From Lactiplantibacillus pentosus (lineage in GTDB: Bacteria > Bacillota > Bacilli > Lactobacillales > Lactobacillaceae), in the NCBI RefSeq assembly GCF_003641185.1, contig NZ_CP032757.1, positions 2,728,001-2,792,000 of the forward strand: a stretch of 64,000 nucleotides of DNA. The letters run 5' to 3'. The stretch's first letter is position 1. The number at the start of each line of letters is the position of its first letter. Position numbers and translations under genes: made by a program. The notes beneath the pieces are model-generated. The model made no database searches and was not told where the DNA came from. It saw only the letters and a list, made by a program, of their open reading frames with translations. Shown here in pieces: positions 3,571 to 53,193 of the stretch.

Positions 3571-3591
3571 AGAGACACAACCATTATTACG

Positions 3592-4658
3592 CATGTGCTA
3601 GGTAACTTGTCATGAATCATGGTTAAATTATGTCATTTCTTAAGTTCAAAAGCCGCCAGCCTAGACCCGCTGGAAACAGTGCGAGTTAGCGTGAACCTGC
3701 TGTTGTAGCGACGTCCTACGCCGGCTTCCAGGCATTCTGGGCAATGGCCGTAACGTGGTGGACACAGATTTAAGCCGACAACCCACGTCTTAAATACTGG
3801 TCTTTCACGCTGGCTGCGATATGGACGAAACGTGTTCAGGTCAGACTGGGACTTCCGGTTAGCTACGCCAGAACGCCAAGCGGAAATGCACCGCTTAACG
3901 CTCTAGCTAGGCTAATCCTCAGTCCCAACCCGTCTGAACCTCACACTCTGAGAAGCACTTGGCCTTGCCCAGAATACCTTCCAGCCGGGATGGTATTCGA
4001 AAGGCAGACATGTGCGAACTCAACTTTTTGTTGGATTAGTCGTTGGTTCCTTGGTACACGGGGACTTTGATATTGAACTGTCAGATTAGTTTCTAATGAT
4101 AACTAAGCTTCCTAACCCATGCTTTAACTTTTCGAATCAACAGTTTCACTGAATTTGTCAAAACTTTCCCTAGTCGTTTGAGATAGCAAAGTCTCGAATT
4201 CCAAACGATGGCAATTTAATCAACTCATTTCAAGACTAATGTCCGTTGAATCTTGCGAATAAAATTTAACTGATTTTTTCAGTAATTAAGTGTGATAAAG
4301 CATTATTGACGACAATTAAAAGTTTGCCTGAAGGACCAGTCACTTAATATTCAGTGGTCAATTGTACCCAGATAGGTGGTCGTTCATCCGCCATTCGAAC
4401 GGCTTCCCGACTGGAGGGGCTGGCTGACAATGCTCAAGGGCGAAGTTCTTCTTGTCCGGGTGGGTTTCCCGGGCTAGAAGAAGACTCGTATTTGAAATTG
4501 CGCAGTGGGTTTCTGCGTGAGTTCAAATCGATGTCCGCCCTGTTCCAGCGTTGTCAGCCAGCCCCGGAGGTCGGACTAAGACGTCCATTGGCTGACGAAC
4601 AGGACGCCAACTTGGCATGATTTAACCATCTTTGATGCTAAAGAATAACTAGCACAAC
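3592..4658 (+). repeat. foldback non-coding element, copy A
   Basis: About 1.07 kb without a credible gene. The ends are imperfect terminal inverted repeats of about 44 bp: the left end begins TGTGCTAG and holds ATGGTTAAAT, and the right end is its reverse complement. Inside are two large imperfect hairpin arms. The left arm (about 3719-3991) is closed by ATTCTGGGCAA pairing with TTGCCCAGAAT. The right arm (about 4416-4575) is closed by GGGGCTGGCTGACAATGCT against AGCGTTGTCAGCCAGCCCC. The two arms are inverted relatives of each other. Copies B and C are homologous along their whole length. Copy A differs by a longer left-arm tip with its own nested hairpin (about 3838-3947). An 88-codon frame at 4354-4620 runs through the right arm and is considered spurious. 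Confidence 0.85.
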
Positions 4659-4683
4659 GCGCTTCAAGGCACTAGCTCCCGAT

Positions 4684-22230: not shown

Positions 22231-22250
22231 ATTGAATAAATCTCCTTTTC

Positions 22251-22264
22251 TGTAATCGTTTACA
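22251..22264. promoter_or_regulatory. cre (CcpA) site of nplT
   Basis: TGTAATCGTTTACA matches TGWNANCGNTNWCA at every position. It lies between a possible -10 (TAAAAT, minus strand) and the nplT ribosome binding site. Confidence 0.8.
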
Positions 22265-22275
22265 TTATTTTACGC

Positions 22276-23244
22276 GTTGTGTTGGTTATTCTTTAGCATT
22301 AATGATGATTGAAACGTGCTAAGTTGGATTGCTGTTCGTCGGCGGAGGCGCGCCCTATTCCGACCTCCGGGGCTGGCTGACAACGCTGGAACAGGGCGGA
22401 CATCGATTTGAACTCACGCAGAAAAGCACTGCGCAATTTCAAATACGAGTCTTCTTCTAGCCCGGGAAGACCACCCGGACAAGAAGAATTTCGCCCTTGA
22501 GCATTGTCAGCCAGCCCCTCCAGTCGGGAACCCGCTCGAATGACAGATGAACGGCCACCTATCCTGGTGCAATTGACCGCTGAATATTAGGCGCCTGGTC
22601 CTTCAGACAAACTTTTAATCGGTATCATTGATGCTTTAAGGCAGTTGAATTCTGTGAAGATTACTTAAATATAAGTCACTTAGCTTAACGATATTAGTTT
22701 CAATGGCAACTGGTGTTGAACTTAGTCGACAAAATACCTTCGTTTAGAATTCAAGACTTGGTTATCTCAGACGACTAGAGAAGATACTGGTAAATTCAGT
22801 AAAACCGCTTGTCGGAAGTCTTTAAGCGCTGGTAAAAAGTTTAGTTATTGTTAGAGCCAGTCTAACAGTTGAATATCAAAATTTCCATGTATCAAGGAAC
22901 CAACGACTAATTCGACAAAAAGTTGATTTCGCACATGTCTGCCTTTCGAATACTATCCCCGGCTGGAAGGCGTTTCTGACAATGCTCAGCGATGAAATTC
23001 CACTTAGCAAGCGTCTTTGGCTTGGTTAGTGGAAGACCAGCATTTAAGACGTGGGTTGTCGGCTTAAATCTGTGTCCATCGCGTTCCAGCGTTGTCAGAA
23101 ATGCCTGGAAGCCGGAATAGGACGCAGCCACAACAGAAAATTTACGCTGGCTCGCACTGTTTCCAGCGGATCCCAGCTGGCAGCACTTGAACTTGTAAAA
23201 TAGCACGTTTTAATCATAATTCATGACAAGTTAACCAGCACAAC
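22276..23244 (-). repeat. foldback non-coding element, copy B
   Basis: About 970 bp in the opposite orientation to copies A and C. The terminal inverted repeats start GTTGTG; both ends carry the variant ACGTGCTA next to ATGATT. The arm homologous to the A/C right arm is at about 22371-22530; the left-type arm is at about 22968-23122 with TTTCTGACAA pairing with TTGTCAGAAA. A middle hairpin GTCTGAGATAACC/GTCTTGAATT is shared with the other copies. No credible gene is present. It separates nplT from thrC. Confidence 0.85.
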
Positions 23245-23361
23245 ACGTCTGATTTTGTAACCAATTCACTAAAATTATCCTGATGATTTTGGTGAAAACG
23301 TCCCCGTTCGTCGTATTTTTAGTGTATGATTTAGTCAAAATCAGTTGAAAGGACGTTATCT

Positions 23362-52018: not shown

Positions 52019-52056
52019 AGCTGATCACTATATGTATGATAATCGCCGTTATTTTC

Positions 52057-52970
52057 TGGCATGAATCATGATTAAAATGCCAGTTCTTAAGTTCAAAGAC
52101 AGCCAGCTGAGACCCGCTGGAAACAGTGCGAGTTACCGTAAACTTGCTGTGGTGGATGCTTCCTAGTCCGGCTTCCAGGCATTTCTGACAACGCTGGAAC
52201 GCGATGGACACAGATTTAAGCCGAAACCCACGTCTTAAATACTGGCCTTCCACTAACCAAGCACACAACGCTTGCTAAGTGGAATTTCATCGCTGAGCAT
52301 TGTCAGAAACACCTTCCAGCCGGGATGGTATTCGAAAGGCAGACATTTGCGGACCAACATTTTGTTGGATTTGTCGTTGGTTCCTTGGTACACAGTCATT
52401 TTTACATTCAACTGTCAGACTGGGTTTTAATGATAGCTAAGGCTCCTTACACATGCTGTCAGATAAGCAACTTCAATGAGTTTCTCTAGTAGTTTGAGAT
52501 AGCGAAATCTCGGCTTCTAAGCGAAGGTAATTTTATCGAACAAATACAAGATTACTTACCATTGAAATTAGTGGCATTAAGATGAGTGAATAATATTCAG
52601 GTGATTTTCTCAGTAATTAACTACCAGAAGTCATCATCAATGCCGCTTATAAGCTCGCCCGAAGAACCAGTCACCTAATGTTCAACGTTCAATTGCACCC
52701 AAATAGGTGGCCGTTCATCCGCCATTCGAACGGCTTCCCGACTGTAGGGGCTGGCTGACAATGCTCAAGGGCGAAATTCTTCTTGTCCGGGTGGATTTCC
52801 CGGGCTAGAAGAAGACTCGTATTTGAAATTGCGCAGTGGTTTTCTGCGTGAGTTCAAATCGATGTCCGCCCTGTTCCAGCGTTGTCAGCCAGCCCCGGAG
52901 GTCGGAATAGGGCGCGGCTCTGCTGACGAACAGTAATCCAACTTGGCATTTTTTAATCATAATTAATGAA
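52057..52970 (+). repeat. foldback non-coding element, copy C
   Basis: About 915 bp, same orientation as copy A. The ends carry ATGATTAAAATGCCA (left) and its near complement TGGCATTTTTTAATCAT (right). The left arm (about 52170-52325) is closed by TTTCTGACAA/TTGTCAGAAA and contains hairpins ATTTAAG/CTTAAAT and TTCCACT/AGTGGAA. The right arm (about 52745-52905) is closed by GGGGCTGGCTGACAATGCT and its complement and contains CTTCTT-CCGGG and ATTTGAA-CGCA hairpins. No gene can be supported. Confidence 0.87.
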
Positions 52971-53193
52971 AGATTGACTGAAACAATGTGTATTCAACAA
53001 TTTTTATGGTCATTAGCTGCCGCGTTAGATTTGAAATCAACAGGTTGTCAAGACAGGGCCAACGGCTTTATCGCTCGATTGGTACACGGCTTGTATCAAA
53101 ATAAAGTTTCCATTAACAATTAAAGGCTTGTTGAATCTTAGGCCAGGCCTTACAATTGGATTATGTTCATCAAACTGCAAGGGAGGGTCAGCA

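Follow-up and report, generated by a model that had tools for sequence, protein, structure and literature searches.

Integron attC sites act as folded single strands that carry conserved unpaired bases, with one strand preferred, and they serve the exchange of cassettes. GOLLD and ROOL, by their nature, are large structured RNAs. MITEs are 50-500 bp in size, as given in PMC10969869, and REP/BIME sequences, as treated in PMC2817692, consist of palindromic units that go with REP-associated transposases.

Here we describe a family of elements of about 1 kb that shares traits with each of these systems. The initial annotation had named no family with this layout, and we likewise found none in the open-licence literature, which was the scope of the search. 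Judged by that literature and by Rfam, the elements apparently form a large, protein-free mobile family of lactobacilli that is undescribed.

Copies in the window

The window, the whole 64,000-nucleotide stretch of DNA that was analysed, holds three homologous elements at the places first reported for them, and their terminal inverted repeats are real and allowed the bounds to be refined. Copy A, whose terminal repeats were read directly, occupies 3589..4662 on the plus strand (earlier bounds, 3592-4658). Copy B occupies 22272..23248 on the minus strand (locus L004), with one mismatch in each terminal repeat. Copy C, on the plus strand, was placed at about 52048-52991 by alignment to the consensus, its outer left terminal repeat having decayed. 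The three are about 0.94-1.07 kb long. Copy A lies between convergent genes for a DUF915 hydrolase and an asparaginase, copy B between divergent genes for an alpha-amylase family protein and threonine synthase, and copy C between tandem genes for a glycosyltransferase and a histidine phosphatase. The alpha-amylase family gene begins only 41 bp from copy B (gap at window positions 22231-22271). This gap holds the word TGTAAACGATTACA, which we take to resemble a catabolite-response site, and the promoter of that gene may therefore lie partly within copy B.

Each copy contains two arms that match arm model R1 in opposite senses. In copy B, these are the left arm at 22964..23110 on the minus strand (L004:2188-2334, 142.5 bits) and the right arm at 22365..22522 on the plus strand (L004:1589-1746, 134.0 bits). 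In copy C, they are the left arm at 52173..52318 on the plus strand (L001:1634-1779, 135.9 bits) and the right arm at 52743..52900 on the minus strand (L001:2204-2361, 136.5 bits). The right arm of copy A, at 4412..4569 on the minus strand (L027:1940-2097, 135.9 bits), is an inverted relative of its left arm, which matches the model weakly at 3726..3917 on the plus strand (L027:1254-1445, 44.6 bits) and forms a three-way junction whose inner hairpin is longer. The two arms of every copy had been said to share the word CTGACAACGCTGGAAC. This holds for copies B and C, whereas in copy A the word is confined to the right arm, the stem of the left arm being different there.

As had been stated at the outset, no reading frame stands out as conserved. 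Coding capacity is not recognisable in the 40 copies examined, whose longest open reading frames (50-125 aa) resemble those obtained from one mononucleotide shuffle of each copy (38-170 aa), and no IS982 transposase is found among these longest frames.

Fold and strand preference of the arms

The arm module is about 147 nt long and is present in each element as two inverted relatives. It comprises a closing stem, an internal loop and two hairpins; conserved bases face each other in the internal loop (GGAAC and TGAGC) and in the second hairpin (CTA and AAG). The inverted arms with a closing stem and two hairpins, proposed from the sequence of the window, proved to be real. Among 22 arms, 31 of the 45 pairs are compensated. 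When 132 arms were placed on the model, 96.8% of the pairing cells could pair, compared with a mean of 69.3% for shuffled arms and 37.5-51.2% for slid structures. The cells changed on both sides numbered 1502, versus 373 after shuffling and at most 210 after sliding, and the covariation score was 0.667, versus 0.160 and at most 0.095, respectively; this alignment was fitted to the arm model and hence leans towards it, while alignment A1 was not fitted. The structural covariation that the initial annotation had asked for in further copies is thus strong. A double change occurs in 44 of the 45 pairs of the 132 arms, yet shuffles give 33.6, so that this count alone proves little.

The consensus fold of the whole element joins its left and right halves, and inverted repeats extend over much of its length, as in a foldback element. 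Neighbouring arms as a rule run forward and then reverse, that is, inverted with respect to each other; loci L252, L259 and L305 are exceptions in which neighbouring arms also lie in one sense. L259 and L252 each hold a cluster of three arms, of which the first two share one sense and the third is reversed; this suggests nested or tandem arrangements. A solo arm of L. songbeiensis (L250:2160-2301) is missing from L. dongliensis (L275:6335-6415). We rejected the insertion of a single arm here, since the arm was lost in L. dongliensis, near the base of a hairpin.

Searches against Rfam returned zero matches for the window at the gathering score and zero for three loci at E values of up to 1, and the check with covariance models therefore matched no known family.

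In true RNA helices, G-U pairs survive and A-C pairs do not. As a control, we counted both among the co-varying pairs of RNase P (the 30 best-scoring of 61 RNAs from the same bacterial family) and found 166 G-U and 9 A-C pairs in 1684 cells, whereas the antisense fold gave 6 and 110. The 22 arms gave 30 G-U and 11 A-C pairs in 656 cells when read in the R-sense, which is the opposite of the model's sense and reads outwards from the centre of the element, and 10 and 41 in the sense of the model. The 132 arms gave 65 G-U and 120 A-C pairs in 3760 cells in the model's sense, equivalent to 120 to 65 in favour of the R-sense. G-U pairs made up 4.6% of the co-varying cells of the arms, compared with 9.9% for RNase P.

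We also counted wobble pairs over the 40 copies, using only pairs found in the folds of both strands; in all these counts, the cells are not independent events. The right arm favoured the R-sense by 29 to 4 (11 pairs for and 3 against) and the left arm by 22 to 11 (10 pairs for and 7 against). Outside the arms, the counts were 89 to 77 in the terminal repeats, 85 to 69 in the middle and 26 to 12 in the outer stem, where a single pair accounted for 14 of the 26. A first full-length fold had pointed to an RNA-like plus strand, but this was discarded, as the bias mostly went when only pairs common to the folds of both strands were used. By these counts, the arms appear to prefer one strand, that reading outwards from the centre, less strongly than RNase P does, and the rest of the element shows little preference. 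This bias of the arms suggests the folding of one of the two strands, as RNA or as single-stranded DNA, and argues against both a role as double-stranded DNA alone and the simple correction of palindromes.

Ends, spread and rearrangement of the family

The consensus of the ends is ACGCRTTGTGCTAGTTA, and it matches the ends of IS982-family insertion sequences in related species. A profile search placed IS982-family transposase loci over the cut-off in 5 of 21 genomes, and in seven of the eight IS982 loci inspected in relatives, both ends were within three mismatches of the terminal repeat of our family. Locus L156 has zero mismatches at either end and a 7-bp duplication, the one clear IS982 duplication, while locus L159 has only one end within three mismatches; an IS982 element of another genus ends alike. 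The window's genome gave 11 IS982 profile matches, all of them below the cut-off. The highest-scoring, at 60 bits, is an 80-aa frame, a fragment on contig C2 that lies beside a family-type end, and the ten others (≤38.4 bits) are presumably other transposases. The C2 fragment apart, no transposase of an autonomous long form was seen between two family ends in ten loci with end-like words that were viewed by eye, of which eight had little or no similarity to the element and two were end pairs 3.8-3.9 kb apart. The arm model found no match in seven IS982 loci, and IS982 itself therefore does not need the arms.

Exact direct repeats of 6-10 bp abut 12 of the 55 elements that have two recognisable ends (five of 8 bp, four of 7 bp, two of 6 bp and one of 10 bp); 2000 shuffles gave 0.27 such elements on average and never more than 3. 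In the other 43, we found no exact duplication of at least 5 bp, which old age would explain. In a first scan, the mean identity of the flanks reached its highest values for lengths of 7 bp (0.42) and 8 bp (0.38), with 0.27 in the control. The comparison of strains and species for empty sites yielded one clean case, a 396-bp two-arm element of L. songbeiensis (L276:1177-1572) that is flanked by a 9-bp duplication and whose ends differ from the consensus by three mismatches; at this place, L. dongliensis (L310) is uninterrupted. Taken together, the IS982-matching ends, the target duplications and the empty site identify the elements as non-autonomous IS982-type transposons. Ends of this type were found neither in ten loci of other genera scanned at up to three mismatches nor, by eye, in G334, a genome of another genus, so that IS982 mobility is shown for Lactiplantibacillus only.

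With copy C as the query, 82 pieces in its own genome merged into 40 places (the best 40 of 191 candidates). This number is a lower bound, as further copies were found through end-like words. The terminal word occurs there, at up to three mismatches, 78 times forward and 77 times in reverse, compared with 10 and 14 in the control, and of 52 further stretches chosen by end-like words, 46 resemble the consensus over more than 45 bp and represent full, shortened or partial copies. Short forms of the family measure 329 and 401 bp. The left arm is missing from L100, L124 and the second copy in L132, the left arm and the middle from L134, and still more from L126; in L061, the right end matches an inverted left arm, as would follow from the replacement of one arm by the other. 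The best-kept part of the family in this genome is the right arm, in which the 40 copies had a mean pairwise identity of 0.928; the left arm followed at 0.826, the middle at 0.734 and the terminal repeats at about 0.64.

When the best ten candidates per genome were considered, the arm model had matches (E ≤ 0.001) in 14 of 40 genera and 89 of 301 genomes of the Lactobacillaceae, among them that of the window; Lactiplantibacillus, Lacticaseibacillus, Levilactobacillus, Lapidilactobacillus and Companilactobacillus are among the matches listed. In G334, a number of copies lie directly beside hairpins that by eye resemble intrinsic terminators, with a T run (L205-L236 and L385-L400). Matches on plasmids were found in 19 records of Lactiplantibacillus and 7 of Ligilactobacillus salivarius, none covering 80% of the query, while a phage collection gave no match. 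A right half-element on the L. salivarius plasmids (L153:2867-3298) has about 90% identity to copy C across 280 bp, a sign of intergeneric spread via mobilizable plasmids. The copies are colinear on five L. plantarum or L. paraplantarum plasmids and in six L. salivarius records (one of them that of the query); since the plasmid copies checked are half-elements, however, this colinearity is no measure of flipping.

We then compared 92 loci of the window's genome with 44 loci of a second species (G016), which represent 34 places, ten being second fetches. Removal of duplicates and of three secondary matches left 22 shared sites. For the remaining 12 places, none of the compared loci was syntenic, which does not amount to evidence of empty sites. 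Of the shared sites, 12 carry the element inverted and 10 unchanged, both orientations of a site thus being seen, between these two species only. The flanks are 0.88-0.97 identical. The element itself is 0.917-0.961 identical at six sites (one in the same orientation and five inverted) and 0.75-0.87 identical at sixteen (nine and seven, respectively). The sites of copies A (L467/L027, identity 0.848) and B (L411/L004, 0.808) are inverted, and that of copy C (L462/L001, 0.777) has the same orientation. One further candidate for an inverted shared copy (L244/L268) was rejected, as it represents separate insertions in one gap.

An inner repeat, ATGATTAAATCATGC, sits just inside the IS982 end, separated from the terminal word by a spacer of one of two types, a and b. 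Eight inverted pairs were inspected. The outermost 24 bp and the spacers had stayed in place at both ends in four, one recognised end had been kept in place in two, and two were uninformative. Since the outer ends are kept in place, the exchange would lie further in, probably at ATGATTAAATCATGC, which is common to both sides. Among 72 copies of the window's genome (20 of the 92 loci failed the filter), 23 had ends of types a-b, 18 b-a, 4 a-a and 3 b-b, with 24 not typed at both ends. Among 29 G016 copies (thirteen loci excluded, ten of them duplicates), the numbers were 6, 7, 1 and 1, with 14 not typed. As a-b and b-a are both common, an element usually has one a and one b end, with its inside in either orientation. 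The two inner repeats are slightly more alike within an element than between elements (15.44 versus 14.63 of 20 positions; 52 elements, 0 of 2000 permutations). The low identity inside elements at shared sites suggests that cassettes may also be replaced from other copies.

Explanations and relation to known systems

We consider it likely that the elements are non-autonomous transposons with IS982 ends, in which a two-arm cassette is inverted in place and seems often to be swapped and the arms act as single-strand structure. An IS982 transposase, whose action we infer for Lactiplantibacillus, would move the elements in trans and leave target duplications of 6-10 bp. The cassette carried between the IS982 ends has two inverted three-way-junction arms, the pairing and core unpaired bases of which are conserved across genera. 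At many sites, the cassette has been turned round in place, and it also seems frequently to be replaced by that of another copy, probably through ATGATTAAATCATGC, the agent being perhaps a recombinase or else template switching at the giant foldback. With less assurance, we propose that the arms most likely provide single-strand structure for the replication or recombination of the element itself and that they would fold on the strand reading outwards from its centre. A further layer can be imagined, in which the IS982 shell would move the element between loci and a dedicated recombination system would read the folded arm strands to flip and exchange the cassette, as at attC sites and in much of the Lactobacillaceae. 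We regard this as unlikely; such a system would have no linked integrase, unlike the setting of integron attC sites.

The initial annotation had weighed a foldback transposon against a structured RNA. The transposon is supported by the IS982-type ends, the duplications and the empty site; for the RNA, there is no Rfam match and there is a strand bias. The arms might then be RNA domains transcribed outwards, belonging to a noncoding RNA gene or to a two-way signal for RNA processing or termination, and this would fit the wobble pairs favouring the R-sense in the 22 arms and in both the right and left arms of the 40 copies, the conservation of unpaired bases and the position of a number of G334 copies that, by eye, adjoin terminator-like hairpins. 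The bias of the arms, however, is intermediate between those of RNase P and its antisense, G-U pairs are less frequent than in RNase P, a slight bias is also present in the terminal repeats and the middle, the count for the outer stem owes much to one pair, and Rfam holds no match; we view outward transcription of such domains as a possibility of rather low probability.

Nor does it seem at all likely that the arms are palindromes with no function, which template switching at replication keeps perfect, covariation being a by-product. Such correction would erase the conserved unpaired or mismatched positions GGAAC/TGAGC and CTA/AAG, and both the strand bias and the identity of the right arm among copies (92.8%, versus 73.4% for the middle) argue against it, although wobble intermediates are few and whole hairpins have been lost near their base in several copies. 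As for the inverted sites, we think it very improbable that different copies had inserted repeatedly at one target and that no inversion took place. At 16 of the 22 shared sites, the elements are no more alike than any two copies while their flanks are well kept, as repeated insertion would have it; five inverted pairs, however, are 0.917-0.961 identical inside, and the outer ends keep their place together with their own spacers.

Lactobacilli are among the bacteria most used in food and health, and a high-copy repeat family present in many of them seems to have gone undescribed. The structural signal of its arms is very strong for noncoding DNA. Elements whose insides are flipped and swapped would reshuffle the borders of genes and mislead assemblies, and the family offers a direct test of whether folded single-stranded DNA guides recombination outside integrons.

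In size and degree of structure, the elements resemble GOLLD and ROOL; they differ in having no Rfam match, a weak strand signal and two inverted halves and in being mobile. They are like MITEs, as portrayed in PMC10969869, in having no transposase gene or other coding capacity, ends in common with an autonomous IS and similarity to it at those ends only, target-site duplications, many intergenic copies and a foldback structure. Copies A to C, at about 0.94-1.07 kb, nevertheless exceed the size range of that source, and the elements differ further in two three-way-junction arms conserved across genera and in an inside that inverts and seems to be swapped. With REP/BIME sequences, as treated in PMC2817692, they have in common palindromic units that stand as inverted pairs at many intergenic places, but the units here are about 147 nt long and contain a junction. 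The IS982 family has the same terminal ends and, in the one IS with a clear duplication, a similar target duplication; our elements have no transposase gene, and seven IS982 loci have no arms. The likeness to integron attC sites would lie in a folded strand with conserved unpaired bases, a strand preference and cassette exchange, although here the exchange would take place at an inner repeat outside the arms, within an element bounded by IS982 ends.
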